Shown: positions 3,950 to 23,189 of the stretch, piece after piece
How the letters are laid out: every line of letters begins with the position of its first letter
How positions within the stretch are numbered: the first letter of the stretch is position 1
DNA from: an uncultured Pseudomonas sp.
GTDB taxonomy: Bacteria > Pseudomonadota > Gammaproteobacteria > Pseudomonadales > Pseudomonadaceae
NCBI RefSeq assembly: GCF_946885885.1
Contig: NZ_CAMPHN010000040.1
Span: 1-30,331, forward strand
Reading direction: 5' to 3'
DNA length: 30,331 bases
Translations under genes and position numbers: made by a program
Notes under the pieces: generated by a model
What the model was told of the DNA's origin: nothing
What the model saw: the letters and a program-made list of their open reading frames with translations, nothing else
Databases searched by the model: none

Positions 3950-4277
3950 CGAGAGGGTCCGTGTCGGGATGCTGGCCAAGCCTATTCGATTATGCGCTGT
4001 CGCGTCATATCCCGATTGCCTGGTCCGGCTGTTCCAGCTGCGATGGGGTTGGCGGTTTTGCCGGTTCAACCGGGGCGCGATATAGGGTTAAATTGCCATC
4101 ACGAATGGATGCACGGCGTTTTGAGCCTGGATGGTTTCCCTCCTGCGATTTCTCCTTATCCATCTGTTTGCTGCTGCCCGGCGCGGCGGCGCAGTGATGC
4201 GCCTGAAGAAAACGAGCGTTTGAAAGTATTACATGTGATGCATTGATTCATTACATGTGTGAGGCTAGTCTCTGCCC
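3950..4277. other. Divergent promoter region between CoA transferase and yjfI-like gene
   Basis: These 328 bases separate two divergent genes and hold no gene that I can support. The notable feature is a pair of ATTACATGTG repeats at 4228-4259, listed separately. A weak sigma70-like pair for the rightward operon is TTGATT (4243-4248) and TAGTCT (4266-4271), 17 bases apart, which would overlap the second repeat. If used, the transcript would have almost no leader before the ATG at 4278 and would favour the internal start at 4458. Confidence 0.5.
4228..4259 (+). promoter_or_regulatory. Paired ATTACATGTG repeats, candidate operator
   Basis: ATTACATGTG occurs at 4228-4237 and again, identically, at 4250-4259. 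The spacing is 22 bases start to start, close to two helical turns. Each copy contains the palindrome ACATGT. The pair sits 18 bases before the first start codon of the envelope operon. Two in-phase copies of a short palindrome are a typical binding arrangement for a ribbon-helix-helix or other dimeric regulator. The binding protein is unknown. Confidence 0.5.
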
Positions 4278-4901
4278 ATGGAAAGCAAATCATCAGCCCA
4301 TTACCAGCGTCTTTTCCGTCAGCGCCTGCGCGAGCAGGGTCTGGTGAAGAAGGAGGTCTGGATACTGCCAGAGCATGCCCCGCTGCTTATGGCGTTCGAA
4401 AGGAAACTTCGCCAGCCGCACTCGGTGAAGCTGGCTTCGATGGAAAAGGAGGAGGGTATGAGCATGCCGCAGATTTGGACTGCACAGGCTTTGCACGATG
4501 CGTTGTCGGCCGCCGAGCTGTTCAAGGGTGGGCAGGCGAGCATCGAGTTGATTCAAGGTGCCGATGCCAGTTTGCATGTCATCATGCACGACTACGGCGA
4601 TCTGCCGTTGTTCGTCGCGGTGTATGGCGAACAGATCATTGTCGAGAGCCTGCTCTGGCCGGCCGCCGATGTACGCGACAGCGCGGCCTTCAACGAGGAA
4701 GTGCTGCGTACCCACAAGCTGTTTCCGCTGTCGTGCATCGGCCTGGAAACCCTGCCGGACGGCCAGCCGTGCTACACCATGTTCGGCGCGCTGAGCTCGG
4801 CCTCCACCCTCAGCGATGTGGTATTCGAGATCGAATTGCTGGCGGACAACGTGATCAAGGCCACCGAAGCCTACGAAGGCTTCCTCAAGGTCGACGCTTA
4901 A
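4278..4901 (+). CDS. yjfI: YjfI-like DUF2170 protein with N-terminal extension
   Basis: This 207-residue protein is the first gene of the large envelope operon. Residues about 61-207 (from MSMPQIWTAQALHDALSAAE) look like DUF2170, the family of E. coli YjfI, whose gene likewise precedes a pspA-like gene (yjfJ). Residues 1-60 are an extra basic segment, YQRLFRQRLREQGLVKKEVW followed by ILPEHAPLL, which has the look of a short DNA-binding or ribbon-helix-helix-like strand and helix. An in-frame ATG at 4458 (M61) is preceded by a very strong ribosome-binding site, AAGGAGGAGGGT, whereas the ATG at 4278 has only GAGG 13 bases upstream. Two products (207 and 147 residues) are therefore possible, and the short one matches the length I recall for YjfI. 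Role unknown; probably a partner or regulator of the PspA protein that follows. Confidence 0.8.
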   Translation: MESKSSAHYQRLFRQRLREQGLVKKEVWILPEHAPLLMAFERKLRQPHSVKLASMEKEEGMSMPQIWTAQALHDALSAAELFKGGQASIELIQGADASLHVIMHDYGDLPLFVAVYGEQIIVESLLWPAADVRDSAAFNEEVLRTHKLFPLSCIGLETLPDGQPCYTMFGALSSASTLSDVVFEIELLADNVIKATEAYEGFLKVDA

Positions 4902-4912
4902 GGAGAGATGCT

Positions 4913-5608
4913 ATGAACGTCTGGAGCAAATTGCTGACGGCGCTGCGTGGCGGTGCCAATGAAATGGGCGAAGCGGTGGTCGATGGTCAGGCGCTGCGGA
5001 TTCTCGATCAGGAGATTCGCGATGCCGACCTCGAACTGCGCAAATCCAAGGAAGCCCTGGCCGAGATCATGGCCAAGCAAAAGCTCGCTGCCGAGCGAGT
5101 CGGAAAGAGCGCGGAGAAGATCGCCGAGTACGAGCAATACGCACTGAAAGCCCTGGAGGCTGGCAACGAAGCGCTAGCCACCGAGGTGGCGGAGAAAATC
5201 GCCAACCTGGAAACCGCCCAGGCCGGCGAGCGTGAACAAGCCGAAGCGTACGCCGCCAGCGTGGCGCAGCTGCGCAAAGCGGTGACCCAGGCCGAAGGGC
5301 ATATCAAACGCCTCAAGCAGCAAGTGGATACGGTCAAGGCCACCGAAAGCGTGCAGAAGGCGCAGATGGCCGTGGCCCACCGTTACGGCGGCTCCCAGGC
5401 CAAGCTGCACACCGCGGTCGAGTCGCTGGAGCGGATCAAGCACAAGCAGGCCGAGCGCGCGGCGAAGATGGAAGCGGCGGCGGAACTGGCCGAAACCAGC
5501 AGCCCGGACGACGCCCTCGACGTCAAACTGCGCGCCGCCGGCATAGTGCCGGCCAACGCCAGCGCCGATAGCGTGTTGGCGCGGCTGAAGGAAAAAGCCA
5601 AGTCCTGA
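4913..5608 (+). CDS. PspA/IM30 family protein (YjfJ-like)
   Basis: This 231-residue protein belongs to the PspA/Vipp1 family, the bacterial branch of the ESCRT-III superfamily, which polymerises on and stabilises inner membranes. Residues 1-24 (MNVWSKLLTALRGGANEMGE) form the expected amphipathic membrane-binding helix. Residues about 25-190 are almost entirely charged and alanine-rich coiled-coil helix, as in PspA. The C-terminal part (about 195-231) is a short linker and helix ending RLKEKAKS. The ATG at 4913 has GGAGAG seven bases upstream. It follows the DUF2170 gene by 11 bases and precedes the OB-fold gene by 65. No pspF, pspB or pspC is present, so control must differ from the classical phage-shock operon. 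Length matches E. coli YjfJ. Confidence 0.93.
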   Translation: MNVWSKLLTALRGGANEMGEAVVDGQALRILDQEIRDADLELRKSKEALAEIMAKQKLAAERVGKSAEKIAEYEQYALKALEAGNEALATEVAEKIANLETAQAGEREQAEAYAASVAQLRKAVTQAEGHIKRLKQQVDTVKATESVQKAQMAVAHRYGGSQAKLHTAVESLERIKHKQAERAAKMEAAAELAETSSPDDALDVKLRAAGIVPANASADSVLARLKEKAKS

Positions 5609-5673
5609 TTCGTCGGGCATGAGCGGCGGGGCCTGCGGGCCTCGCCTGATCTTCTTCCAGGGATGTGAACGCG

Positions 5674-6306
5674 ATGGATATTTTCCTGCAGACGGCCTTG
5701 TCGTTCCCCACGGCGCTGTTCAGTTTCCTGCTGTGCGTGGCGGTCTTCTACTGGCTGGTCGTGGTGCTCGGCGGCGTCGACATCGATCTGCTCGACGCCG
5801 ATGGGGTGACCGAAGGCGGCCAGACCGAGGGGCTCGCCGCGCTGCTGAGCAAGTTGAAGCTGGACGGCGTGCCGGTCACCCTGGTGTTGACCCTGTTGTT
5901 CTTCTTCGCCTGGTTCTTCAGTTATTTCGCCGAACTCTGGTTGCTCAGCCATCTTCCGCTGGGCCTGTTGCGCTACCCGCTGGGGCTGGTGGTGGCATTT
6001 GCCGTGTTGCTGCCGGCAGCGCTGATCAGCTCGATACTCTGCCGTCCCTTACGTCCGTTGTTTCACAAAATGGAAGCCACCAGCAGCAAAAGCGTACTGG
6101 GACAGACGGCGGTGGTGCGCAGCGCCAAGGTCACGCCGAGGCATGGCGAAGCGCTGCTCGAGGACGGCGGCGCGGGCCTGATTTTGCGCGTGCGGGCCGA
6201 TGAGGCTTGTGGTTTCAAGCGAGGCGATCGCGTCGTGTTGTTGGAGTACCTGAAGGCCGAGCACGCCTATCGGGTCATTACCGAGGATGAGTTTCGGAAC
6301 GTCTGA
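5674..6306 (+). CDS. yqiJ: YqiJ-like membrane protein with OB-fold domain
   Basis: This 210-residue protein resembles E. coli YqiJ, the partner encoded next to the flotillin YqiK. Residues about 5-35 form a membrane segment (FPTALFSFLLCVAVFYWLVV). Two further hydrophobic stretches lie at about 68-95 and 100-125 (VTLVLTLLFFFAWFFSYFAE and LGLVVAFAVLLPAALISSIL). The soluble C-terminal half, from about 143 (GQTAVVRSAKVTPRHGEALL, FKRGDRVVLLEY), fits an OB-fold of the NfeD type, usually paired with SPFH proteins. I chose the ATG at 5674 over the in-frame GTG at 5665, since AGGGA sits ten bases before the ATG. The flotillin follows 52 bases later, as expected for an NfeD/flotillin-type pair. Confidence 0.9.
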   Translation: MDIFLQTALSFPTALFSFLLCVAVFYWLVVVLGGVDIDLLDADGVTEGGQTEGLAALLSKLKLDGVPVTLVLTLLFFFAWFFSYFAELWLLSHLPLGLLRYPLGLVVAFAVLLPAALISSILCRPLRPLFHKMEATSSKSVLGQTAVVRSAKVTPRHGEALLEDGGAGLILRVRADEACGFKRGDRVVLLEYLKAEHAYRVITEDEFRNV

Positions 6307-6358
6307 TCCCGGCTCACTTAAGAGTTCGGCACTTTAAAATCAAAGGAGATTGATTTCG

Positions 6359-8434
6359 ATGAATATAGCGACTTTGCTGCCACTCCTGATGGGGGCTGGC
6401 CTGGTCATTCTACTGATCGTGGCTCTGCTGGCGCTGTTCAAAGCTTTCTATATCAAGGTCCCGCAGGGCACCGCGCTGATCGTCAACGACATGTCGTCGA
6501 CGCCCAAAGTGCATTTCACCGGCGCCCTGGTCTACCCGGTGATCCACCTCAAGGAGTTCATGAAGATCTCCCTGATCACCCTGGAAGTCGACCGTCGCGC
6601 CAAGGACGGGCTGATCTGCCGCGACAATATGCGCGCCGACATCACCGTGGCCTTCTACCTGCGCGTCAACGAAACCCAGGAAGACGTGCTCAAGGTGGCC
6701 AAGGCCATCGGTGTGGACCGCGCCTCCGACCGCTCCGCGGTCAACGAGCTGTTCAACGCCAAGTTCTCCGAGGCGCTGAAGACCGTCGGCAAGCAGTTCG
6801 ATTTCGTCCAGCTGTTCGAGAATCGCCAGGATTTCCGCGACCGCATCGTCGAGGTGATCGGCAACGACCTCAACGGTTATGTGCTGGAAGACGTGGCCAT
6901 CGATTACCTGGAGCAGACCTCCAAGGCGTCCCTGGACCCGAGCAACATTCTCGATGCCGAGGGTATCCGCAAGATCACCCAACTGACCGCCGCGCAGAAC
7001 GTCATCACCAACGAGCTGGAGCGCAACGAAGAGCTGGCGATCAAGAAGAAGAACGTCGAAACCCGCGAGGCCACGCTATCCCTGGAGCGCCAGCAGGCCG
7101 ATGCCGAAGCGCGGCAGAAACGCGAGATCGAAACCATCCGCGCCCGTGAGGAAGCCGAGACCCTCAAGGTCAAGGAAGAGGAACGTCTGAAGGCCGAACA
7201 GGCGCGTATCCAGACCCAGCAGGAATTGGACATCCGCGCCGAGAACCACCAGCGCGAAGTCGAAGTGGCGCAGCAGAACCGCCAGCGAGCAGTGGTCATC
7301 GAGGTGGAAAAAGTCACCCGTGCCAAGGATCTGGAAATCGTCTCGCGCGAGCGTGAGGTCGAATTGCAGCGCATCGAGAAGGAAAAGGCCCTGGAAGAGG
7401 AGCGCAAGAACATCGCCGGGGTGATCCGCGAGCGCGTGGCGGTGGAGAAAACCGTGGCCCAGGAAGAGGAGCGGATCAAGGAAGTGCGCGAGGTGTCCGA
7501 GGCCGAGCGGGCCAAGCAGGTCATCGTGTTGCAAGCGCAAGCCGAGGCCGAGCAGGAGCTGGTGCGCCAGGTCAAGCAGGCCGAAGCCGACGAAACCCGT
7601 TCCAAGCACAAGGCCGTGGAAATCAACAACCTGGCCCAGGCCGAGTTGGAAGCCGCGGCCAAGCAAAGCGAAGCCAAGAAGAAAATGGCCGAAGGCATCG
7701 AGGCCGAGCGCGCCGCGCCTGGTCTGGCCGATGCCCGTGTGCGTGAAGTCACCGCCGCGGCCAAGGAGAAGGAAGGCCTGGCCGAGGCTCGCGTCGAGGC
7801 CGAGCGCCTGATCGCCGAAGCCAAGGGCGAGCAGGAAAAAGGTCTGGCCGAGGCGCGGGTCACCGAAGCCAAAGCGACCGCCAAGGAAAAAGACGGCCTG
7901 GCCGATGCCAAGGTGCTCGAAGAGAAGCTCACCGCCCAGGCGCGTGGCGAGGAGCAGTTGGGCGTGGCCAAGGCGAAGGCGACCAAGGACCTGGGTTCGG
8001 CCGAAGCCGAAGTGCTGCTCGAACGCCTGAACGCCGAGGCCGAAGGTCTGGGCAAGAAGTTCGGCGCCCTCGACGCGCTCAGCGACAGCGCACGCCAGCA
8101 CGAAGAGTTCCGCATGCAGCTGGAGAAGAACTTCGACGAGGCCATGGCCGCGATCGCCGCCAACAAGGAAATCGCCAAGGATCAGGCCGAAGTGCTCTCG
8201 GCCGCGCTATCCAAGGCGAAGATCGAAATCGTCGGCGGCGAAGGCGACTTCTTCAACTCCTTCGCCAAATCGCTGTCGGTGGGCAAGGCCATCGAAGGCG
8301 TGGTCGGCAAGAGCCCGGTGGTGCAGGACGTGCTGGCCCGCATGCTGGCCGGCAAACCGGCGGTGCCCAGCGTTACCCCGGTGCCGGTGGCCGCGGCGCA
8401 AGCGCCAGTCGGCAATGGTGCCAGCGAGGTATAA
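6359..8434 (+). CDS. yqiK: Flotillin / SPFH-domain protein (YqiK-like)
   Basis: This 691-residue inner-membrane protein begins with a hydrophobic segment (about residues 4-32) and an SPFH/Band 7 domain (about 35-210; FKAFYIKVPQGTALIVNDMS, the DLNGYVLEDVAIDYLEQTS region). A very long Glu/Ala/Lys coiled coil follows to about residue 600, then a C-terminal region near FFNSFAKSLSVGKAIEGVVG. Flotillins oligomerise and organise membrane microdomains. It is longer than E. coli YqiK (about 550 residues). Part of the excess is a 40-residue internal repeat in the coiled coil at residues 455-534, listed separately. The ATG at 6359 has AAAGGAGA nine bases upstream; the in-frame TTG at 6350 is too close to that site. 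Confidence 0.94.
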   Translation: MNIATLLPLLMGAGLVILLIVALLALFKAFYIKVPQGTALIVNDMSSTPKVHFTGALVYPVIHLKEFMKISLITLEVDRRAKDGLICRDNMRADITVAFYLRVNETQEDVLKVAKAIGVDRASDRSAVNELFNAKFSEALKTVGKQFDFVQLFENRQDFRDRIVEVIGNDLNGYVLEDVAIDYLEQTSKASLDPSNILDAEGIRKITQLTAAQNVITNELERNEELAIKKKNVETREATLSLERQQADAEARQKREIETIRAREEAETLKVKEEERLKAEQARIQTQQELDIRAENHQREVEVAQQNRQRAVVIEVEKVTRAKDLEIVSREREVELQRIEKEKALEEERKNIAGVIRERVAVEKTVAQEEERIKEVREVSEAERAKQVIVLQAQAEAEQELVRQVKQAEADETRSKHKAVEINNLAQAELEAAAKQSEAKKKMAEGIEAERAAPGLADARVREVTAAAKEKEGLAEARVEAERLIAEAKGEQEKGLAEARVTEAKATAKEKDGLADAKVLEEKLTAQARGEEQLGVAKAKATKDLGSAEAEVLLERLNAEAEGLGKKFGALDALSDSARQHEEFRMQLEKNFDEAMAAIAANKEIAKDQAEVLSAALSKAKIEIVGGEGDFFNSFAKSLSVGKAIEGVVGKSPVVQDVLARMLAGKPAVPSVTPVPVAAAQAPVGNGASEV
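7721..7960 (+). repeat. Two tandem 120-base (40-residue) repeats within the flotillin gene
   Basis: GLA[DE]ARV-type units begin at 7721, 7775, 7841 and 7895, and a diverged GVAKAKA unit begins at 7961. The 18- plus 22-residue spacing makes two full 40-residue repeats, starting exactly 120 bases apart (7721 and 7841). They encode alternating GLAEARV and KEKE/KGEQEK blocks, extending the coiled coil without breaking frame. The copies have diverged, so the expansion is not recent. Confidence 0.75.
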
Positions 8435-8641
8435 GCCGCTGCCTCGGTGCCCGCCTCCAGGGCACCGAGCTATTCGAATAAAGTCACTGTGCTCCTTGTA
8501 GGAGCCGCTTGCTGCGGTCCGGCGTCCCGGCGATCTCGTCTGAGTCCGGGTTACCGGGCCGCCGGATCGCCGAACCGCAGCAAGCCGGTTCCCACAGGAC
8601 CGACATGACCGCCAAGACGCCGCAGATTCAGGAAGACCACG
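8435..8641. repeat. REP/BIME-type palindromic pair between flotillin and ATPase genes
   Basis: The 207-base gap holds a Pseudomonas-type REP unit (TGTAGGAGCCGCTTGCTGCG, from about 8497) and its inverted partner (CGAACCGCAGCAAGCCGGTT, to about 8602), separated by about 55 bases. Together they could form a large cruciform or an RNA hairpin of the kind known to stabilise or attenuate transcripts. A 19-codon frame at 8605-8664 overlaps the next gene's start and is discussed as a finding only. Confidence 0.75.
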
Positions 8642-11600
8642 ATGTCGCAGCCGCAAACCGCTAACCAGGCACAGGACGTATTGGACAAGGCCGTCGCCGA
8701 AGGCGGCGCCTACGAGGTGCTGCACAAGCGCCTGCTGGAGCAGGGCCTACGCCTGCGCCAGACCACCGAGGCGCTGAACGCTCAGCGTTTGCAGGAGTTT
8801 GGCAGCAGCCAGATGGAAGTGGTCGGGCGGGTACGTATCCGCACCGAAAACAACTGCACGGCTCGCGATATCGTCCAGGTCGGCGACAATCTGCTGTTCG
8901 GCTACAACGTGTTCCTCGGCCTGAAAAAGGAAACCCGGGTCGAGGACGTATTCTCCCTGTATCGCCTGAGCGAGCAGGACGAAGGCTATGAAGCCGAGAG
9001 CCTGGCGCTGGCCGACAGCTTTCTTGGCCAGAGCAGCTTCGTCAACGACTTCAACGAGCTCTACACCTACTACAAGAACACCCGCCTGCTGCAACTGCTG
9101 GTGCGCGACGGCAAGCTGCTGGCCAGTTTCCAGATCGGCGAGCGGGTCAGCGATATCCGCGTGTTCCGCTGGTCGATCGCCGAAGGCGGCAAAGAAGTTC
9201 GTTATATCGATAACCGCGGCGAGCGCGACATCGCGCTGCCGGCGCCGTTCGATTTCGAATGGCAAAAGACTTCCCGCGAGATGGTGGTCAATGGCCGCCA
9301 TCCGCATATGAATATCCTCGATACGATCTTCGTCGAGACCATCGGCGGCGACCTCACGGTCAAGGTCGAGAACAATACCGAGGACGGCCAGGGCATCTAC
9401 CGCGAAGCGGTGCTGGACAAGACCCAGTCGCTGGACGACGCGCAGATCGAGTACGCCAAGCTCGGCAGCCTGATCCTGCTCAAGGTATTGCCGTACCGCG
9501 AAGAGCAGTGGCGTTACCTGGTGTTCAATAGCCTGACCCGCAAGGTCGAGCGCATCGACGCCATCGGCCTGGCCTGCGTGCAGCTACCGGAAGACCACGG
9601 CATCATCTTCCCCGGCGGCTATTACCTGCAGAACGGCGAGTCCAAGGCCTTCGAACAGTCTATGGCGGGCATGCGCTTCAAACGCGCGGTGCGTTCGCCC
9701 AACGGCGAGGACGTGCAATACATCTTCTACCACCCGGAAGAAGGCCGCTCGGCGCTGTTCACCTACAACATGATCAATCGCCAGTTGCATAACCCGATCT
9801 TCGGTCACGGTTATGCGCGCCTGGAAGACGGGCGCATGGTGATCTTCGCAGCCGAAGGCACAGAGCCGACCCGTATCCACCCGATGCAGATCTGGCAAAC
9901 GCCGTTCGAGAGCGACGAGTTCGCCGCCCGCCAGCCGGCGCGCAGCGGCTTCTTCGGGCGTATCGGCAATGCCGAACTGGTGCGTGGTGTCTCCGATCTG
10001 CTCAATCTGAGTCGCGAAATCGAGAGTCCTGAAGTCTCGGTGCCGCGCTACACCCAGTTGTGCCAAAACACCCGCCGCTTGTTCGACGTCTACCACTGGC
10101 TGGGCGATGCCCATTGCCAGGGCATGGCGCCGCTGCTGCGCGAGATCGCCGCCACCGGCGAGCTGGTGCTCGACGAGTTCGAGAAGGTCGAAAGCATCCG
10201 TCAGCAATCGGCCCGCGCCATGGCCGAAGCCGAAACCCGGCAGAAGGCGTTGTTCTCCGGTCTGCTGCTCGACAGCTGGGACCAGGTGCAGCAGTTCGTC
10301 GACGCGCTCAACGGCATCAATGCCTTGCGCGGCCAACTGCTGACCATCCGCGATTACCGCTATATCGACGTGGCGCGTATCGACGCCATGGAAGTCGAGT
10401 TGCTCGCCGCCCAGGATCAGGTCGCGACTGCGACCTCGGCGTTTCTTGCCAGCAAGGCGGCGCTGCAACCTTATGTGCAGCAGCTGGCCCAGCTCGACGC
10501 ACAGGCGCAGAAGGCCGAGAGCGTCAGTCAGCTCAATGAGCCGCTGGTGGCGTTGCAGGCGATGGCCGGCAACCTGGACATGCTCTCTGGCCTGATGGCC
10601 TCCCTGCCGATCGACGACGCTACCCAGCGCACCGCGATCGTCGAGTCGATTTCCGAAGTATATGCCCGCCTCAACCAGGCCAAGGCCCGTGCCGAGCAAA
10701 GGCGCAAGGGCTTGGGTTCGGCGGAGACGGTGGCGCAGTTCGGCGCCCAGTTCAAACTGTTCAGCCAGGGCATCACCAACGCCCTGGCAATGGCCCAGGA
10801 CCCGGAACGCTGCGACGAACAGCTGTCGCGCCTGCTGGTGCAGCTCGAAGAGCTGGAGAGCCAGTTCGGCGATCAGGAACAGTTCCTCGGCGATATCCTG
10901 AGCAAGCGCGAAGAGCTGCTGGAAACCTTCGAAGCGCACAAACAGGCGCTGCTCGACGAGCGTCAACGCAAGGCCCAGGGTCTGCTCGATGCCGCGCGGC
11001 GCATCCTGGAAAGTCTCGGTCGGCGCACCGCGCGTCTGACCCAGGCCGAGGAACTGAACGCCTTTTTCGCCGCCGACCCGCTGATCCTCAAACTGCGCGA
11101 ACTGGCCGAGCGCCTGCGCGAGCTGAAGGACAGCGTCAAGGCCGAGGATGTCGAGGCGCGTCTCAAGGCCGCCCGCGACCAGGCGGTGCGCAGCCTGCGT
11201 GATAAGAGCGAGCTGTTCGAGGAGGGCGGCAACGTCATCAAGCTCGGCCCGCGCCACCGCTTCAGCGTCAACACCCAGGAGTTGGACCTGACCCTGATGC
11301 CGCGCGGCGATCAGCTCTATCTGCACCTGACCGGCACCGAATTCCTCGAACCGCTACAGAATGCCGAGTTGGAAGCGCTGCGCGATTATTGGCAGGTGTC
11401 CCTGGAGTCCGAATCCGCCACGCTCTACCGCGCCGAATACCTCGCCGGCGAAGTGCTGGTGGCGGCCGATGGCGGACGCGACGGTCTCAGCCTTGATCTG
11501 CTCAAGCAGCAATTGACCCAGCCGGAGGCGCTGATCAAAAGCATTCGCGACTTCGCCGCGCCGCGTTACAAGGAAGGCTACGAGAAGGGCATCCACGACC

Positions 11601-13894
11601 ACGATGCGGCGCTGATCCTCGCCCAGCTGCTGCCGCTGCGTGACAGCGCCGGGCTGCTCAGCTACGGCGCCTTGCCCCGGGGTTTCGCCAGCTTTTTCTG
11701 GGGCCAGACGCAGCGCCGCGACGAGGCCAAACAATGGCCGCAGCGCGCGCGTAGCGCCCGGTATATCCAACAGTTGTTCGGCCAGCGCGACAGCCTGTTG
11801 CAGTTGCAGGCGGAAATTGCCGAGGCCATGGCCGGCTATAGCGCCGAGCAGGAGATGACCCTGGCCCAGGCGACACTGGCTGAAGCCGCGGAATATCTGG
11901 TGCAGGAACTGGCCGCCGAACGTGTCGAGTTCGTCTTCAGCAAATACGCCCGCGAGTTGCTGGCCGGGTTGCAGGCGCGCTTGCAGACCGCGCATGCTTG
12001 GGATCTCTACCAGCAAACCCTGCAGAGCCTGCAAAAGCGCCCGGCGGCGCAGTGGGCACTGGTGGAAAACTGGTTACGCGGCCTCTGCGCAGCGGACGAA
12101 TTCGCCGCGCTCAGTGCCTATGTGCCCGAGGCCGTTGCCTTGAGCCTGCTCGCCGAGGAGTTGCCGAAGCGCATCACCGAGGTGGATCTGCGTTTCACCG
12201 TCAAGGAGTTGATGGGCGAGCACCCACGCATCGGCGAACGGCAACTGGTGCTGGCGGTGGACGATTTCTTCGCCCGCCTGCGCGTGCATCGCGAGCAGTT
12301 CCTGCCCGGTTTGCAGCGCTACCAGGCGCTGCGCCAGGCGGTGGTGGCGAGCGAACGCGAGGCGCTGCGCCTCGATGAATTCAAGCCCAAGCCGCTCAGC
12401 TCCTTCGTCCGTAACAAACTGATCAACGACGTTTATCTCGGGGTGATCGGCGACAACCTGGCCAAGCAGATGGGCACCGCGGGAGAGAACCGTCGCTCGG
12501 ACTTGTCCGGCCTGCTGATGCTGATTTCGCCGCCGGGTTACGGCAAGACCACGCTGATGGAGTACGTCGCCCACCGTCTCGGCTTGATCTTTATGAAGAT
12601 CAACGGCCCGGCCCTGGGTCACGAGGTGCGCTCCCTGGACCCGGCCCAGGCGCCAGACGCCACCTCGCGCCAGGAGCTGGAAAAGCTCAACCTGGCGCTG
12701 GAAATGGGCAACAACGTGATGCTCTATCTCGACGATATCCAGCACACCCATCCGGAGTTCCTGCAGAAGTTCATTTCGCTGTGCGACGGCACCCGGCGTA
12801 TCGAAGGTGTGTGGAAGGGCCGCACCCGCACCTACGACATGCGCGGGCGCAAGTTCTGCGTGATCATGTCGGGCAACCCCTATACCGAGTCCGGCGACGT
12901 GTTCAAGATTCCGGATATGCTGGCCAACCGCGCCGATATCTATAACCTCGGCGACACCCTGGGCGGCATGCAGGAAGCCTTCGCGCTGAGCTATATCGAG
13001 AACGGCCTGACCTCCAACCCGGTTCTGGCGCCGCTGGCCACCCGCGATATGGCCGATGTTTACCGCTTCGTCGCCAAGGCCGGGGGCAAGCCGTTCTCCA
13101 GCAACGAACTGAGCCACAGCTACAGCGGCGCCGAGGTCAACGAAATCGTCACCACCCTGCAACGCCTGATGCAGGTGCGCGACGTGGTCGGCCGGGTCAA
13201 TCAGCAGTACATCGCCAGCGCCGCTCAGGCCGATCAGTACCGCACCGAGCCGCCGTTCAAGTTGCAGGGCAGCTACCGCAACATGAACAAGATGGCGGAA
13301 AAGATTTCCGCGGTGATGAACGATGCCGAGGTGCTGCAACTGATCGCCGACCACTATCAGGGCGAATCCCAGTTGCTGACCACCGGCGCCGAGGAGAACC
13401 TGCTCAAGCTCGCCGAGCTGCGCGGCAATATGACCGCCGAACAGGCAGAGCGCTGGGTGCAGATCAAGCGCGACTTCATGCGCAACAAGGCCATGGGCGG
13501 CAGCGATACGGACGTGGGTGGGCGCGTGGTGGCGCAGCTCAACGACCTGGTCGAGGGCGTGCGCGGTCTCGCCAAGCTGGCGCCCGGCGAACAGCCCAGC
13601 GCGCCGACGATTCCCTGGGCCGAGCTGCTCGCCGGGTTGGATAATCTGGGCAAGCTGCGCCCGCAGGTCGAGGTGGTCGCCCCAGCTCAACCGGCGGTGC
13701 AGAAGCTCCTGGAAAGCCTGGCCGACAGCCTGCAGAACAGCTTCCTGCCGTTGATCAAGGCGATGGACAAGAAGATCGATATCGATCTGCGCACGCACAA
13801 CCGCATGCTGGAAATCTCCACCCAGCTGCGCGACCTCGGCAAGCAGCTCGGTCACGAGCAGCGTGTCGGCGACGTCGACGGCGAGCCGCTGTGA
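8642..13894 (+). CDS. Giant AAA+ ATPase (annotated elsewhere as DNA repair ATPase, DUF3686-like)
   Basis: This 1750-residue protein appears to have three regions. Residues about 55-430 are rich in beta strands with short repeated motifs (VEDVFSLYRLSEQDEGYEAE, LFTYNMINRQLHNPIFGHGY) and could be a propeller-like domain. Residues about 460-1230 are mostly helical with long coiled-coil stretches, interrupted by a beta segment near 871-910. Residues about 1250-1500 are the ATPase module: Walker A ISPPGYGKTT (K1302, T1303), Walker B VMLYLDD (D1364-D1365, with Asp where Glu is usual), and MSGNPYTESGDVFKIPDMLA with sensor Asn1412. This last motif resembles the NP...E..G...LP signature of MoxR-type ATPases. 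AGGAAG lies six bases before the ATG. The stop overlaps the next start (GTGA). The repair label is historical; context points to envelope work instead. Confidence 0.88.
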   Translation: MSQPQTANQAQDVLDKAVAEGGAYEVLHKRLLEQGLRLRQTTEALNAQRLQEFGSSQMEVVGRVRIRTENNCTARDIVQVGDNLLFGYNVFLGLKKETRVEDVFSLYRLSEQDEGYEAESLALADSFLGQSSFVNDFNELYTYYKNTRLLQLLVRDGKLLASFQIGERVSDIRVFRWSIAEGGKEVRYIDNRGERDIALPAPFDFEWQKTSREMVVNGRHPHMNILDTIFVETIGGDLTVKVENNTEDGQGIYREAVLDKTQSLDDAQIEYAKLGSLILLKVLPYREEQWRYLVFNSLTRKVERIDAIGLACVQLPEDHGIIFPGGYYLQNGESKAFEQSMAGMRFKRAVRSPNGEDVQYIFYHPEEGRSALFTYNMINRQLHNPIFGHGYARLEDGRMVIFAAEGTEPTRIHPMQIWQTPFESDEFAARQPARSGFFGRIGNAELVRGVSDLLNLSREIESPEVSVPRYTQLCQNTRRLFDVYHWLGDAHCQGMAPLLREIAATGELVLDEFEKVESIRQQSARAMAEAETRQKALFSGLLLDSWDQVQQFVDALNGINALRGQLLTIRDYRYIDVARIDAMEVELLAAQDQVATATSAFLASKAALQPYVQQLAQLDAQAQKAESVSQLNEPLVALQAMAGNLDMLSGLMASLPIDDATQRTAIVESISEVYARLNQAKARAEQRRKGLGSAETVAQFGAQFKLFSQGITNALAMAQDPERCDEQLSRLLVQLEELESQFGDQEQFLGDILSKREELLETFEAHKQALLDERQRKAQGLLDAARRILESLGRRTARLTQAEELNAFFAADPLILKLRELAERLRELKDSVKAEDVEARLKAARDQAVRSLRDKSELFEEGGNVIKLGPRHRFSVNTQELDLTLMPRGDQLYLHLTGTEFLEPLQNAELEALRDYWQVSLESESATLYRAEYLAGEVLVAADGGRDGLSLDLLKQQLTQPEALIKSIRDFAAPRYKEGYEKGIHDHDAALILAQLLPLRDSAGLLSYGALPRGFASFFWGQTQRRDEAKQWPQRARSARYIQQLFGQRDSLLQLQAEIAEAMAGYSAEQEMTLAQATLAEAAEYLVQELAAERVEFVFSKYARELLAGLQARLQTAHAWDLYQQTLQSLQKRPAAQWALVENWLRGLCAADEFAALSAYVPEAVALSLLAEELPKRITEVDLRFTVKELMGEHPRIGERQLVLAVDDFFARLRVHREQFLPGLQRYQALRQAVVASEREALRLDEFKPKPLSSFVRNKLINDVYLGVIGDNLAKQMGTAGENRRSDLSGLLMLISPPGYGKTTLMEYVAHRLGLIFMKINGPALGHEVRSLDPAQAPDATSRQELEKLNLALEMGNNVMLYLDDIQHTHPEFLQKFISLCDGTRRIEGVWKGRTRTYDMRGRKFCVIMSGNPYTESGDVFKIPDMLANRADIYNLGDTLGGMQEAFALSYIENGLTSNPVLAPLATRDMADVYRFVAKAGGKPFSSNELSHSYSGAEVNEIVTTLQRLMQVRDVVGRVNQQYIASAAQADQYRTEPPFKLQGSYRNMNKMAEKISAVMNDAEVLQLIADHYQGESQLLTTGAEENLLKLAELRGNMTAEQAERWVQIKRDFMRNKAMGGSDTDVGGRVVAQLNDLVEGVRGLAKLAPGEQPSAPTIPWAELLAGLDNLGKLRPQVEVVAPAQPAVQKLLESLADSLQNSFLPLIKAMDKKIDIDLRTHNRMLEISTQLRDLGKQLGHEQRVGDVDGEPL

Positions 13895-14457
13895 CGACCT
13901 GGCTGATCCCGCGGGTGCAATTGCTGTTCGGCATCGCCGCGCTGATGCTGGTGCTGCAATTGGTCAATAGCGTCAGCGGCTACAGCCTGAATGCTTGGGG
14001 CGTGATCCCGCGCCGGCCCGAGTCCTTGCCGGGCATTTTGTTCGCCCCCTGGTTGCATGGCGGTTGGCTGCATCTGTTGGGCAATCTCAGCGGGTTGCTG
14101 GTGCTCGGCGCCCTGACGTTGATCGAGTCGCGCCGCGACTTCGTCAAAGCCAGCGCGTTTATCGTCCTCGGCAGTGGCCTGCTGGTCTGGCTGTTCGCCC
14201 GCGAAGGCATCCATGTCGGCGCCAGCGGTTGGCTGTTCGGGCTCTGGTCGTTGCTGTTGGCACGAGCCTGGTTCCGCCGCAGCTGGCTGGATTTGCTGCT
14301 GGCGATCCTGGTGCTGTTTCTGCATGGCGGCTGGGTCTTCGGCCTGCTGCCGCAGCACGGCGTTTCCTTCGAATACCATCTGGCCGGTACGCTCTGTGGC
14401 GGCCTTTATGCGGCCTGGCGCTATTCGCCGCGCCAACGCCGCAAACAAGGAGGTTAA
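13891..14457 (+). CDS. Rhomboid-family intramembrane serine protease
   Basis: This 188-residue protein has about six hydrophobic segments and the rhomboid active-site set. The catalytic serine is S112 in GASGWLFGLW (GxSG motif), the catalytic histidine is H163 in EYHLAGTLCGG, and N65 in HGGWLHLLGN lies in the conserved HxxxN loop. All key residues are present, so an active protease that cleaves within membrane helices is predicted. The start is GTG at 13891, overlapping the stop of the giant ATPase by four bases (GTGA), and the stop abuts the next start. The three genes are therefore translationally coupled. Its substrate is unknown; membrane proteins of the same operon are candidates by inference only. 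Confidence 0.88.
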   Translation: MTTWLIPRVQLLFGIAALMLVLQLVNSVSGYSLNAWGVIPRRPESLPGILFAPWLHGGWLHLLGNLSGLLVLGALTLIESRRDFVKASAFIVLGSGLLVWLFAREGIHVGASGWLFGLWSLLLARAWFRRSWLDLLLAILVLFLHGGWVFGLLPQHGVSFEYHLAGTLCGGLYAAWRYSPRQRRKQGG

Positions 14458-15144
14458 GTGGATTTCAATCGTCTCGATCAGCAACTGCGCGACAGCCTGG
14501 CCGATCTGCGTCTGAGCAATGAGGAGCGCGACGAGCTGCGCCAGCTCGGCAGCGAGTTGAGCCCGGATCAGGTGCGCTATATGCGCAACCGCGCCTTCGC
14601 CCTGGTGCGCGAACTGATCCGCGAGCCGGCCAATGCAGAGCCGGCGCTGAAGTGGTTGGAGCAGGTGATCAAGACCCTCGACGCCCATGTCTTTCCGACG
14701 CGCAATCTCGCCAGCGCCCATTTCAGCCCGGGCGACGACTGCCGGCGGAAAATCCGCGAGCTGTGCCGGCAGGCGCGCAAGAGTTTGGATATTTGCGTCT
14801 ACACCATCTCCGACGACCCGCTCAGCGAGGAAATCCTCGCCTGCCATCAACGCGGTCTGGCCGTGCGGGTGATCAGCGACAACGACAAGCAGTTCGACGT
14901 CGGCAGCGACGTGCAATGGTTACGCGACAAAGGCGTGCCGCTGCGCATCGATTCCGGCCCCTACCACATGCACCACAAATTCGCCCTGTTCGACGGCCAG
15001 CTGCTGCTCAACGGCAGCTTCAACTGGACCCGTAGCGCCAGCACCAGCAATGAGGAGAACTTCGTGGTGGTCGACCATCCGCAGTTGCTGGCGGCCTTCA
15101 GTCGCGAGTTCGACAGCCTGTGGGCGCGTTACGCGGATAACTGA
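14458..15144 (+). CDS. Single-HKD phospholipase D-like protein
   Basis: This 228-residue protein has an N-terminal helical region (residues 1-80) of no clear family and a PLD-type catalytic domain (about 83-228). The motif MHHKFALFDG supplies H172, K174 and D179 (HxKxxxxD), followed by LLLNGSFNWTRSASTSNEEN, the usual arrangement in one-HKD enzymes such as Nuc-type nucleases and mitochondrial cardiolipin hydrolase. Such proteins work as dimers. Lipid or nucleic acid could be the substrate. No signal peptide is seen, so it should act in the cytoplasm or at the inner face of the membrane. The start is GTG at 14458, directly after the rhomboid stop, with AAGGAGG just upstream. It is the last gene of the operon. 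Confidence 0.9.
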   Translation: MDFNRLDQQLRDSLADLRLSNEERDELRQLGSELSPDQVRYMRNRAFALVRELIREPANAEPALKWLEQVIKTLDAHVFPTRNLASAHFSPGDDCRRKIRELCRQARKSLDICVYTISDDPLSEEILACHQRGLAVRVISDNDKQFDVGSDVQWLRDKGVPLRIDSGPYHMHHKFALFDGQLLLNGSFNWTRSASTSNEENFVVVDHPQLLAAFSREFDSLWARYADN

Positions 15145-19787: not shown

Positions 19788-21812
19788 ATGTTTCATCGTT
19801 TATTCACTACCAGAACGCGCGTCGGCCGCAGGCTCGTGCTGCTGATCGCTGTGGTTCTCTCGCAACCCGCGCTGGCCAGCGCGCAATCCGCCGCCGAGCG
19901 CAGCGAGAGTCCGTATTTCGCCGTGCAGAGCGACGATCCGACCCTCGATCGCTTGCCGCTCAAGGCCACCAAGGTCGAGGTGCGGGTGCTCGGGGTGATC
20001 GCCGATGTGCGGGTCGTCCAGCAATACCGCAACGAGGGCACGCGGGCGCTGGAGGCGCGTTACGTGTTCCCCGGCTCGACCCGCGCGGCGGTCTACGGCA
20101 TGACCGTGCGCCTGGGCGATCGCGAGCTGCGGGCGCAGATCCGCGAGAAGCAGAAGGCCAAGAAGGAATATCAACAGGCCAAGAGCGCCGGCAAGACCGC
20201 GGCCCTGCTCGAACAGTACCGCGAAAACGTATTCCAGATGAATGTCGCCAATATCCTGCCCGGCGATGTGGTCGATGTGGAGCTGCGCTATACCGAGTTG
20301 CTGCTGCCCACCGATGGCGTCTACAGCTTCGTTTTCCCAACCGTGGTCGGGCCGCGCTACAACGGCAGCGCCGGTAGCGAGAGTGCCAAGGCCGGACCCT
20401 GGGTCAGCACGCCCTATCTGCCCCAGGGCGAAGCGACGCGCGACGCTTTCTCGCTCGCTGTGGAGTTACAGGCGCCGGTGCCGCTGGCCGATATCCGCTC
20501 GCCAAGCCATGCCATCGAGCTGCGACAGGCCAAGCCGAGCGAGGCGACCGTCAGCCTCGGTTCAGATGAGGGGCAGAGCAACAACCGCGATTTCATCCTC
20601 GACTATCGCCTGAGCGGCGCGAGTTTCGAGAGCGGTGTGCTGCTGTCCAAGGGCGTCGACGAGAACTTCTTTATGGCGCTTATCGCGCCGCCGGCGAAGG
20701 TGCAAAACAAAATGCTGGTGCCGCGCGAATATATCTTCGTGGTGGATATTTCCGGCTCCATGCACGGCTTCCCGCTGGATACCGCCAAGCGCCTGCTGAG
20801 CGATTTGATCGGCAGCCTGCGTCCGGCCGACAGCTTCAACGTGCTGCTGTTTTCCGGCAGTAGCCGCATGCTCGCCGCCGAGTCGCAGGCGGCCACGCCG
20901 GCGAATATTCGGCAGGCCCTGGATATGCTCGATACGCAGATGGGCTCGGGCGGCACCGAGTTGCTGCCGGCGTTGCGCCAGGCCCTGGCGGTGCCGGCCG
21001 ATCCCGAGCGGGCGCGCAGCTTCGTGGTGGTCACCGATGGCTTTGTGTCGGTGGAGCGCGAGGCCTTCGAGCTGGTGCGCAACAACCTGGACAAGGCCAA
21101 TCTGTTCGCCTTCGGTATCGGCAGTTCGGTCAACCGCCAGCTGATCGAAGGCCTGGCGCGGGCCGGGCAGGGTGAGCCCTTCGTAATCCTCAATGAGGCT
21201 TCGGCGGACGAGCAGGCCGAGCGCTTCCGGCAGATGATCGATGCGCCGGTGCTGGCCGACCCGCAGGTGCGTTTCGATGGGCTGGAGGTCTACGACGTCG
21301 AGCCCGTGGCCTTGCCGGATCTGTTCGCCCAGCGGCCGCTGGTGGTGTTCGGTAAATGGCGCGGCGAGGCGCGCGGCAGCCTGCAAGTGGAAGGACGCGG
21401 CGCCGCCGGGCCATATCGAGTCGAGGTGCCGATCAAGCCTGAGATGGCCAGCACGAGCAATCAGGCGCTGGGCTATCTGTGGGCGCGGCATAAGGTCGCC
21501 AGCCTCACCGATCAGGAAACCCTCGAAGGCGGCTACAGCCATAGTCAGGCGATTCTCGACCTTGGGCTGAAATACAGCCTGTTGACGCCCTATACCTCGT
21601 TTATCGCCGTGGACGAACGGGTGCGCAACACCGATCCGGCCGCTGCCGCCAGCGTCAAGCAGCCATTGCCGCTGCCCCAGGGCGTGAGCAATCAGGCGAT
21701 CGGGGCGGTGGTGTCGGGCACGCCCGAGCCGAGCGCCTGGCTGATGCTGCTGGTCGCGACCCTGGGCATGGGCTGGCTGGCGCGCCAGCACGCCCGTCAG
21801 GAACAACTCTGA
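19788..21812 (+). CDS. VIT-vWA domain protein with PEP-CTERM-like sorting tail
   Basis: This 674-residue protein carries an N-terminal signal peptide (about residues 1-33, LVLLIAVVLSQPALASA). A VIT domain follows (about 55-175; ARYVFPGSTRAAVYGMTVRL, REKQKAKKEYQQAKSAGKTA), then a von Willebrand A domain (about 312-490). The vWA metal site looks intact: DISGS (D320, S322, S324), T390 in GSGGT, and D417 in VVTDGF. The last 31 residues have the three parts of an exosortase sorting signal: GTPEPSA (P646-E647-P648), a hydrophobic helix (WLMLLVATLGMGWLA) and a basic end (RQHARQEQL). GGGGAG lies seven bases before the ATG. The stop directly abuts the exosortase start, making this protein its probable substrate. 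Overall it resembles an inter-alpha-trypsin-inhibitor-heavy-chain-like surface protein. Confidence 0.92.
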   Translation: MFHRLFTTRTRVGRRLVLLIAVVLSQPALASAQSAAERSESPYFAVQSDDPTLDRLPLKATKVEVRVLGVIADVRVVQQYRNEGTRALEARYVFPGSTRAAVYGMTVRLGDRELRAQIREKQKAKKEYQQAKSAGKTAALLEQYRENVFQMNVANILPGDVVDVELRYTELLLPTDGVYSFVFPTVVGPRYNGSAGSESAKAGPWVSTPYLPQGEATRDAFSLAVELQAPVPLADIRSPSHAIELRQAKPSEATVSLGSDEGQSNNRDFILDYRLSGASFESGVLLSKGVDENFFMALIAPPAKVQNKMLVPREYIFVVDISGSMHGFPLDTAKRLLSDLIGSLRPADSFNVLLFSGSSRMLAAESQAATPANIRQALDMLDTQMGSGGTELLPALRQALAVPADPERARSFVVVTDGFVSVEREAFELVRNNLDKANLFAFGIGSSVNRQLIEGLARAGQGEPFVILNEASADEQAERFRQMIDAPVLADPQVRFDGLEVYDVEPVALPDLFAQRPLVVFGKWRGEARGSLQVEGRGAAGPYRVEVPIKPEMASTSNQALGYLWARHKVASLTDQETLEGGYSHSQAILDLGLKYSLLTPYTSFIAVDERVRNTDPAAAASVKQPLPLPQGVSNQAIGAVVSGTPEPSAWLMLLVATLGMGWLARQHARQEQL

Positions 21813-23189
21813 ATGGACACCCTATGGCGGATCGGCGGGGCGCGCGGTTTTGTCGAACCGCCCGCCTGGCTGTGGTTGCTGCTGCCGGCGCTGGCGCTGT
21901 GGCCGGCTTGGGAGTGGAGCGTGCGGCGGATGAGCGACGGCTCCGACGACCCGTTCGGCATAGTCGCGCTGCTCGCCTTGGCGCTGATGCTGTGGCGCGA
22001 ACGCCGGCAGTTGTCGGCCGCACCGCGTCTGCCCTGGTTGCTGTCGGCCTTGCTGCTCTGCGCCCTGGTTGCGCTGGCGCCGGGGTTGCCGCCGTTGCTG
22101 CGCGCGGTGCTGGCGGTATTGGCGCTGTTCGGCGCGGTGATGGCGTTGCGTACGCAGGGTCAGGCGCTGCTGGCCTGGCTGGGGTTGGGTTTGTTGGCGC
22201 TGCCGATCATGTCGTCGTTACAGTTTTTCGTCGGTTATCCGCTACGGGTGCTGACCGCCGAAGTCAGCGCCTGGCTGTTGCGCGCGGGCGGGCTGGAGGT
22301 GCTGCGTCAGGGCAGCACGCTGGAGGTGGCCGGGCAACTGGTGATGGTCGATGCGCCTTGTTCGGGTATTCAGATGGCTTGGGTCGCGTACTTCACCGCG
22401 TTCGCCACGGCCGCCTGGTTGCGCTTGAGCGATCGCCAGTTGTTGCGACGCCTGCCGTTGCTCGGTGGGTTGGTATTGACCGGCAATATCCTGCGCAACA
22501 GCCTGCTGGTGTTGCAGGAAACCGGGCGCCTGGACTGGCCCAGCTGGATGCACGAGGGCACCGGTTTGCTGGTGTTCGTCGCGGTCTGCGCGTTGGTGTT
22601 GCGCTATGTCGCCGCCGGGGCTGCAAGGGCGCAATCGGTTATCGCGCCGGGGTACAGGCGGCCGCTCGAACCATGGGTACGGCGCCTGCTGGCACTGGCG
22701 TTCGCGGCGTTGGCGCTATGGCCTTTACTGAAGCAGCCGACGGCGGCCGAGCCGCCGCATGGGAATTTCGTCGAGTGGCCCACGCGTTTCGCCGATCAGC
22801 CGTTACGGCCGCTGGCGCTGTCGGCGGTGGAGCAGCGTTTCGCCACGCAGTTTCCCGGCGCCATCGCCCGTTTCAGCGCCGGGCCGCGTTTGGTGACGCT
22901 GCGTCATGTCACCCGGCCCACGCGCAAATTGCACCCGGCGGCGGATTGTTACCGCGGCCTGGGTTATCGCATCGAGGCCATGCATCTGGAGCAGCGTACC
23001 GAGGGCGCCGGCCTGCAGCGCTGCTTCGTCGCCGACGGGCACGGGGTGCGTTTGCGGGTCTGCGAATACATCGAGGACGCCAACGGGCGGACCTTCAGCG
23101 ACAACTCGGCCTGGTATTGGGCGGCCCTCGCCGGCGATTCGCCAGGGCCCTGGCGCGCGGTGAGCACGGCCGAGCTGTTGACTCCATGA
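21813..23189 (+). CDS. Exosortase with C-terminal EpsI-like extension
   Basis: This 458-residue protein has about eight to ten membrane helices (residues 17-270 and about 290-310) and the exosortase catalytic triad: C183 in VDAPCSGIQMAW, R228 in TGNILRNSLLV and H247 in WMHEGTGLLVF. Exosortases cut PEP-CTERM proteins at the inner membrane and pass them on to the envelope or outside. Residues about 315-458 form a non-membrane region with LHPAADCYRGLGYRI, similar in layout to the EpsI domain often fused to or encoded beside exosortases. It starts at the base after the stop of the VIT-vWA gene. No exopolysaccharide genes are in view, so this looks like a one-substrate type. The exact family name, possibly XrtQ, is not certain. 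Confidence 0.9.
   Translation: MDTLWRIGGARGFVEPPAWLWLLLPALALWPAWEWSVRRMSDGSDDPFGIVALLALALMLWRERRQLSAAPRLPWLLSALLLCALVALAPGLPPLLRAVLAVLALFGAVMALRTQGQALLAWLGLGLLALPIMSSLQFFVGYPLRVLTAEVSAWLLRAGGLEVLRQGSTLEVAGQLVMVDAPCSGIQMAWVAYFTAFATAAWLRLSDRQLLRRLPLLGGLVLTGNILRNSLLVLQETGRLDWPSWMHEGTGLLVFVAVCALVLRYVAAGAARAQSVIAPGYRRPLEPWVRRLLALAFAALALWPLLKQPTAAEPPHGNFVEWPTRFADQPLRPLALSAVEQRFATQFPGAIARFSAGPRLVTLRHVTRPTRKLHPAADCYRGLGYRIEAMHLEQRTEGAGLQRCFVADGHGVRLRVCEYIEDANGRTFSDNSAWYWAALAGDSPGPWRAVSTAELLTP

Follow-up and report, generated by a model that had tools for sequence, protein, structure and literature searches.

A contig from an uncultured Pseudomonas sp. (NZ_CAMPHN010000040.1, assembly GCF_946885885.1) was analysed over its positions 1 to 30,331, a stretch of 30,331 nucleotides called the window below. 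It carries seven genes that form a real bacterial membrane-stress operon, already partly described. With a probability of about 0.7, the locus is explained as a bac-type envelope-stress operon in which BacA is an autorepressor and a YqiJ-flotillin scaffold is served by an AAA+ motor. Two results seem to be new, namely an N-terminal domain of BacA together with its operator, and the tracking of the flotillin by the giant ATPase. The first-pass annotation had placed seven same-strand genes at 4278-15144, and all of them are present on the + strand (Table 1). Its gaps of 11, 52, and 207 bases, the four-base overlap, and the direct abutment are correct, but the gap given as 67 bases is actually 65. 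Regulation, that is, the BacA N-terminal domain and the probable operator, was missing from that account.

Relatives were surveyed at 137 loci: the best 80 of at least 580 genome stretches, ten of twelve plasmid loci (the two Proteus ones were left out), and 47 loci from draws of the family Pseudomonadaceae and of various phyla. Clustering at 97% ATPase identity gave 101 clusters, of which 94 had enough flanking DNA to be counted and seven were dropped. Flotillin was found in all 94, YqiJ in 93, PspA in 67, BacA in 66, PLD in 47, and the rhomboid in 44, and the complete seven-gene set in 23. Such co-occurrence exceeds chance, and the conserved PspA-flotillin-ATPase neighbourhood that had been expected is borne out, with flotillin beside the ATPase in every cluster, and it is already in print (PMC11237479; PMC10948618). 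Comparison of these loci shows that the make-up of the operon is preserved in many genomes, with a YqiJ-flotillin-ATPase core on which BacA-PspA, the rhomboid, and PLD are optional layers. The 80 genome loci are biased towards close relatives of the window ATPase, and the loci are related, so that counts and p-values are not independent.

BacA is made up of two parts. The C-terminal domain has the type III secretion system (T3SS) chaperone/YbjN fold, its best match being the crystal structure 8q8o (E 1.4e-17), followed by YbjN, SigE, and AmyR. The N-terminal stretch of about 45 residues is strongly conserved in 66 operons including that of the window, and it is coding, as mismatches by codon position (406, 217, and 962 in 59 loci) indicate. 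It is absent from E. coli YjfI and from loci L150 and L203. In the P. aeruginosa-like locus L137, BacA is identical to 8q8o at 145 of 146 residues; since the crystal chain begins at residue 61 of this protein, the N-terminal domain is missing from the crystallised form. PA3732 is given as a 16-kDa protein in PMC2587700. Free-standing repressors resembling the N-terminal domain were sought; the 15 small matches are mostly nameless and two are labelled 'DUF2170, partial', and therefore they are probably fragments instead.

Upstream of the bacA genes that encode the domain lie two 10-base palindromes, TYACATGTRA, mostly spaced by 22 to 24 bases (of 61 pairs, 32 at 22, 13 at 23, and 10 at 24). When each box was allowed at most one mismatch and the promoters were anchored by a profile, the pair was present in 64 of the 66 domain-bearing ATPase operons (window included) and at least one box in all 66. 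At DUF2170 loci without the ATPase the pair occurred in 15/19 and at least one box in 19/19, and in four of the 19 a single box was found within 170 bases of the domain; in longer DNA of these four, L196, L198, and L200 have a second box, and that of L193 is degenerate. None of the three loci in which the domain is naturally absent (L150, L203, and E. coli yjfI) has a box, and random background windows gave a pair in 28/4080 and at least one box in 215/4080. A test with a simpler anchor, which mis-anchored at least at L040, gave 47/67 exact and 60/67 one-mismatch pairs before bacA as against 3/67 in shuffled sequence. Before the other eight genes it gave no exact pair and 0-6 one-mismatch pairs per gene, near the shuffled level, the highest being 6/97 (yqiJ), 5/101 (ATPase), and 4/100 (flotillin).

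Of 15 whole genomes, 11 have a single exact pair, the one at bacA; one genome (G418) has three, one of them at bacA, and three have none. Among these last, G433 is without a DUF2170 gene, and the pair of G002 departs from the exact pattern. The centre of the box changes with the type of the domain: AT accompanies 74/74 domains that are not of the GYVKHE type, and GC accompanies 8/11 of those that are (the remaining three have AT and GT). The GYVKHE-type clade (L192, L193, L195, L196, and L198-L201) carries TCACGCGTGA-type palindromes at a distance of about 45 bases, the second degenerate in L193, and the DUF3686 ATPase was not found in its genomes. In G418, one of the two extra pairs (L216, L217) precedes a gene that is LemA-like by its sequence and the other lies near a small membrane-protein gene; a small BacA regulon is possible there.

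In 32 box-aligned promoters with 22-base spacing, TTGA stands between the boxes (100, 84, 81, and 62% by position), and TAG-CT follows box 2 (100, 100, 78, -, 90, and 100%), 17 bases from TTGA. As a mechanical sigma-70 scan called no promoter site, the bacA promoter is read from the anchored alignment alone. With box 2 in the spacer and box 1 upstream of the -35 element, the pair occupies a repressor's place. Since the boxes accompany the domain, the pair is mostly unique in the genome, and its centre changes with the domain type, BacA is probably an autorepressor that binds the paired palindromes at its own promoter, as judged from comparative sequence evidence. This agrees with the P. aeruginosa bacA insertion mutant described in PMC10948618, in which the other five Bac proteins (BacB-F) rise 6.1-13.5-fold.

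Several observations weigh against autorepression. The N-terminal domain has no Pfam match and a weak match to the plasmid repression protein NF041430 (E 0.014). Its model has predicted local distance difference test (pLDDT) blocks of 53-74, low to middling; compared with the ribbon-helix-helix fold, it is a helix-extended-helix of low confidence. L150 and E. coli yjfI, scored as boxless, have look-alikes at two mismatches, and a looser pattern gives a pair before yqiJ in 2/30 bacA-less operons. L029 keeps TCACGCGTGA twice upstream of bacA though the domain is frameshifted in that assembly. An alternative is an unlinked regulator that binds the boxes while the BacA N-terminal domain serves otherwise, for example in membrane or RNA binding. 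In its favour are the low-confidence fold of the domain, the pair kept in L029, and the two additional pairs of G418, which lie away from bacA. However, the exact pair is found solely at bacA in 11/15 genomes, the boxes accompany the domain onto plasmid pQBR103 (L095), their centre shifts with the domain type, and the one-mismatch TTACATGT precedes yqiJ in just 1/31 bacA-less operons; overall, an unlinked regulator is improbable.

Another alternative is transcription driven by sigma-54 with a PspF-like activator, as for E. coli pspA; a sigma-54 site is proposed in two papers (PMC2587700 and PMC10948618), which counts against the present reading. A GG-N10-GC motif upstream of bacA (Table 1) is kept in L002, L003, L014, and L017, but not in L004, L005, and L137, whereas the first box is kept in all eight rows of the same alignment. 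The plain sigma-54 pattern with three mismatches is in no excess (128 against a chance mean of 146). BacB is a PspA/IM30 protein, as the E. coli Psp system requires, but no PspF-like family was found by Pfam among the 24 open reading frames of the window that were scanned, nor were the pspB and pspC families, small frames lying outside the scan and the rest of the genome outside the window. Sigma-54 control is thus quite improbable, and autorepression by BacA at a sigma-70-type promoter is preferred.

The second result concerns the flotillin. Among 248 Pseudomonadaceae genomes, 42 have the ATPase; flotillin is found in 42/42 of these and in 5/206 others, where it is distant (Fisher p 2e-42, for related and non-independent loci). 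The corresponding figures are 41/42 and 17/206 for DUF2170, and 42/42 and 31/206 for PspA. The ATPase was found in eight of 398 genomes drawn across phyla, with an adjoining flotillin in all eight; a flotillin was found in 43/390 of the others, and these 43 are distant, at 25-33% identity, none of their matches reaching past residue 509. The linked proteins are longer, with a median length of 687 residues (585-903, n=100) against 576 for unlinked ones (560-589 and one of 985, n=21), and residues 561-600 have a mean occupancy of 1.00 among linked rows as against 0.10 among unlinked ones. In a tree of flotillin residues 1-455, the 101 linked sequences and 22 unlinked ones (E. coli YqiK and 21 from the Pseudomonadota draw) separate without error, with a support of just 0.535 for the node of the linked clade (midpoint-rooted FastTree). 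Linked flotillins of Streptomyces, Nonomuraea, Deinococcus, and Hymenobacter lie at distances of 0.7-1.3 from that of the window and 2.4-2.8 from unlinked ones. Thus, linked flotillins of Actinomycetota, Deinococcota, and Bacteroidota are nearer to the window protein than are all 22 unlinked ones, which are all from Pseudomonadota. From the tree and the distances it follows that this flotillin accompanies the ATPase across phyla.

It had been proposed earlier that the giant ATPase remodels the polymer of PspA or flotillin. A role as polymer remodeller remains plausible, but PspA is not the favoured client: since the operons keep flotillin (94/94) and YqiJ (93/94) and PspA is linked in 67/94, the flotillin/YqiJ unit is favoured, and the conservation suggests that the ATPase goes with the flotillin scaffold instead of PspA. 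The ATPase would contact the flotillin, whose extra C-terminal segment (about 480-600) may be the docking site. On the other side, deletion of the P. aeruginosa flotillin (PA14_16180) costs at most about 20% of the biofilm (PMC13086221).

An ATPase that recycles a PspA polymer in the manner of Vps4 is a further explanation. PspA is indeed a member of the ESCRT-III superfamily, as the first-pass annotation had stated: BacB matches eight Vipp1/PspA sequences in the PDB (best E 1.2e-5). It is linked in 67/94 clusters, is present in 42/42 ATPase genomes of Pseudomonadaceae, and ESCRT-like roles for PspA-AAA+ pairs are suggested in PMC11237479. Operons without PspA may also mislead, as G004 and G008 carry PspA elsewhere in the genome, and a whole-genome search of 11 genomes found it in ten, the one without it (G007) being metagenome-assembled. 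Yet 27/94 operons are without detected PspA, including ten yqiJ-flot-rhom clusters and operons of Actinomycetota and Deinococcota, and it is linked in 3/8 phylum-draw loci, although one of the five without it has only 4.4 kb of upstream DNA and L150, with a gene-sized space between bacA and yqiJ, may have a diverged PspA that was overlooked. Distances of the ATPase follow those of PspA least (r 0.74, against 0.86 for flotillin and 0.94 for YqiJ, not corrected for the species tree). In Lysobacter-type operons (L049, L051, L070, L072, L076, and L080), PspA is strongly diverged, with 31-39% identity, flotillin having 59-63% and the ATPase 62-66%.

The ATPase itself keeps Walker A, Walker B, and the conserved Asn after Walker B in 101 sequences. 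Its Pfam matches are nearly tied between AAA_5 (2.9e-6) and AAA (1.1e-5), and its sequence profile matches P-loop stretches of VCP-type and RuvB ATPases. The model of the AAA region (1185-1660) has a mean pLDDT of just 64, and with this low confidence RuvB, NorQ/CbbQ, and MCM rank best in Foldseek, while in a second look with VIA, CbbQ, Clp, and NorQ fall within about 1 Z unit; Vps4 is not among the listed fold matches. Assignment to the MoxR type (NorQ, CbbQ) would be limited by the Clp rows within 1 Z unit of NorQ/CbbQ and by the same mean pLDDT of 64. In the model a hairpin follows Walker B (at residues 202-215 of the modelled piece); if real, it would fit the pre-sensor-1 hairpin group and might separate the ATPase from Vps4. 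No MIT domain was found by Pfam at E 0.01. The earlier suggestion of a Vps4-like enzyme is partly supported: the weak AAA model best resembles RuvB, NorQ/CbbQ, and Clp, and is compatible with Vps4. Overall, a Vps4-like recycler of PspA is unlikely, and service of the YqiJ-flotillin scaffold is preferred.

The rhomboid and PLD had been proposed as auxiliary enzymes that clear proteins and lipids. Their catalytic residues are kept, but the rhomboid occurs in 44/94 operons and PLD in 47/94, only about half in each case. The rhomboid motif G110-x-S112-G113 and H163 show conservation of 97% or more across 46 sequences; assignment as rhombosortase was rejected at 28 against 84 bits, below the NCBIfam TIGR03902 cut-off. 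In pQBR103 the rhomboid gene lies directly behind pspA, and in Providencia, Xenorhabdus, and kin it lies behind the ATPase gene, with no linked PspA. In PLD the HxK...GSxN residues H172, K174, D179, G186, S187, and N189 likewise reach 97% conservation or more across 49 sequences. The nearest PDB entry is mitochondrial cardiolipin hydrolase (E 2.6e-26), followed by Nuc endonuclease (2.9e-13), and this ranking makes both lipid and nucleic acid possible substrates. A DNA-repair or phage-defence system would be suggested by the 'DNA repair ATPase' label in Pfam and RefSeq, by PLD matches to Nuc endonuclease and DISARM DrmC models (NucT 3.9e-11, DrmC 8.7e-10), and by induction of the operon upon phage infection (PMC12041424). 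However, no experiment behind the label was found, PLD is far under the NCBIfam cut-offs (DrmC, 33 against 133 bits) and closer to the hydrolase than to the endonuclease, the remaining six proteins have weak or no PADLOC matches, and the partner proteins are membrane proteins. Such a system is therefore very unlikely, and a membrane-stress function is retained.

A proposed mechanism of this envelope-stress operon can be described as follows. The BacA N-terminal domain, as dimers, would bind the two palindromes that flank and overlap the region of the -35 and -10 elements of a sigma-70-type promoter, and the T3SS-chaperone-like domain would bind PspA (BacB). The BacA-BacB complex has a predicted score of 0.981 in PMC13092808, and the contact is also quoted as an unpublished result in PMC10948618. 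Membrane damage may alter the amount of free PspA, so that BacA would release the DNA and the whole operon would be expressed. PspA would coat the damaged membrane, and the YqiJ-flotillin complex may form a scaffold in the membrane, which the giant AAA+ protein might remodel or load while docked by way of the extra flotillin segment. The rhomboid and PLD would cleave membrane proteins and (probably) anionic lipid, or nucleic acid, at the damage. The release of BacA by PspA is an inference only, by analogy with PspA-PspF and with CesT-CsrA (structure 5z38, listed among the BacA fold matches). In cells infected by phage, PA3728-PA3732 increase jointly (PMC12041424), which fits a stress release of the operon.

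It is tentatively suggested, as a possibility short of even odds, that BacA is the first of a repressor class that joins a small DNA-binding domain of a new kind to a PspA-sensing secretion-chaperone fold, so that an ESCRT-III-type membrane protein would itself govern how strongly a flotillin scaffold and its dedicated AAA+ motor are expressed, forming a self-contained sensor and repair machine for membrane damage. If true, Psp-type responses would have a self-contained control without PspF, which a single protein and a 32-base DNA would suffice to test. The BacA crystallised to date lacks the part that may bind DNA, and the link between the flotillin clade and the giant ATPase gives bacterial flotillins with mild deletion effects a candidate partner.

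Table 1. Operon genes, promoter elements, and other features of the window
Feature	Position	Strand	Remarks
GG-N10-GC, possible sigma-54-type site	4133..4146	+	kept in the four closest of seven aligned relatives
Candidate operator box 1 (TTACATGTGA)	4229..4238	+	just upstream of -35; anchored alignment
-35-like element TTGATT, sigma-70 type	4243..4248	+	conserved in anchored alignment
Candidate operator box 2 (TTACATGTGT)	4251..4260	+	within 17-base -35/-10 spacer; anchored alignment
-10-like element TAGTCT	4266..4271	+	6 nt before bacA ATG (possible leaderless start)
bacA, DUF2170/BacA	4278..4901	+	207 aa; N-terminal domain, residues ~4-48; DUF2170 CesT/Tir-like domain, 67-203
bacB, PspA/IM30 family	4913..5608	+	231 aa
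bacC, YqiJ-like membrane protein	5674..6306	+	210 aa
bacD, flotillin (SPFH), ATPase-linked clade	6359..8434	+	691 aa; extra C-terminal segment ~480-600
Inverted repeat	8507..8585		26-nt arms, 88% complementary; in 207-base flotillin-ATPase gap
bacE, ATPase	8642..13894	+	1750 aa; DUF3686 (38-485), DUF7902 (607-689), AAA+ domain; Walker A 1299-1304, Walker B 1361-1365
Rhomboid protease homologue	13891..14457	+	GTG start; conserved catalytic S112, H163
bacF, single-HKD PLD-family protein	14458..15144	+	GTG start; H172xK174

Five of the seven gene names are backed by Pfam directly: DUF2170 (E 2.2e-52), PspA_IM30 (1.9e-54), DUF3686 (7.7e-208) plus a P-loop AAA domain in the ATPase, Rhomboid (1.6e-19), and PLDc_2 (4.2e-27). 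Since Pfam gives no match at E 0.01 for the flotillin and the YqiJ-like protein of the window, these two were named through E. coli YqiK and YqiJ: the flotillin is 28% identical to YqiK over 457 residues (E 4.6e-41), and the YqiJ family profile recovers E. coli YqiJ at E 3.8e-13. No Band_7 or Flot match was found in the window flotillin; among 32 flotillins scanned, including it, at E up to 1, Flot was found in three and Band_7 in one, and the related YqiK carries both. Searches of the PDB with the flotillin, by single sequence and by profile, gave no match. The inverted repeat before bacE is imperfect and is presumably a REP-type element. Downstream of the operon lie YaeQ and RecJ genes, a gene for a VIT-VWA domain protein that abuts an exosortase (EpsH family) gene (19788-23189), a C58-type cysteine peptidase domain (23257-24219, - strand; Pfam Peptidase_C58, E 2e-12), and a homologue of the MATCAP peptidase family (28578-29873; Pfam PF08014, E 1.4e-136).

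Among known systems, the operon is the same as the P. aeruginosa bacABCDEF (Biofilm Associated Cluster), in which reverse-transcription PCR joins bacA to bacF across each gene border in PA14 and the bacA mutant shows effects on rhamnolipid, swarming, and biofilm (PMC10948618). The window has the same single-strand order, BacA-PspA-YqiJ-flotillin-ATPase-PLD, and its BacA scores 350 bits, above the 300-bit NCBIfam cut-off for BacA. In the P. aeruginosa-like L137, bacE is a DUF3686 ATPase, bacF is PLD, and no rhomboid is present; the window carries its rhomboid gene between those of the ATPase and PLD. Ravi et al. 2024 (PMC11237479) describe an operon class of CesT/Tir (DUF2170)-PspA with a TM-band-7-flotillin, YqiJ, and an AAA+ ATPase with beta-propeller and coiled coil, joined by PLD in some Proteobacteria; the main components and the optional PLD are common to both. 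The section on this class mentions no rhomboid, DUF2170 N-terminal domain, operator, or ATPase-tied flotillin clade, and the word 'rhomboid' is absent from the main text of both papers. A literature search, mostly of main texts of open-access papers, found no statement of the N-terminal domain, operator, or flotillin clade among the matches listed.

In E. coli K-12, yqiJK lies at 3.19 Mb and yjfIJ at 4.41 Mb, far from each other, as the first-pass annotation had said. A nucleotide search of E. coli for the flotillin gave no match; at the protein level, identities to the yjfIJKL and yqiJK products are 32% (BacA-YjfI), 38% (PspA-YjfJ), and 28% (flotillin-YqiK). Unlike in the window, no ATPase adjoins yqiJK, YjfI has no N-terminal domain, and the yjfI promoter has no box at one mismatch or less. 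Plasmid pQBR103 (L095) unites what is separate in E. coli, with a yjf-type operon fused to the flotillin-ATPase core in the order yjfI-pspA-rhomboid-DUF2491-DUF350-DUF1190-glutathionylspermidine synthase-YqiJ-flotillin-ATPase. Relative to these systems, the window adds new details to a known operon: the rhomboid, the flotillin-ATPase tie across phyla, and, above all, the probable BacA operator.

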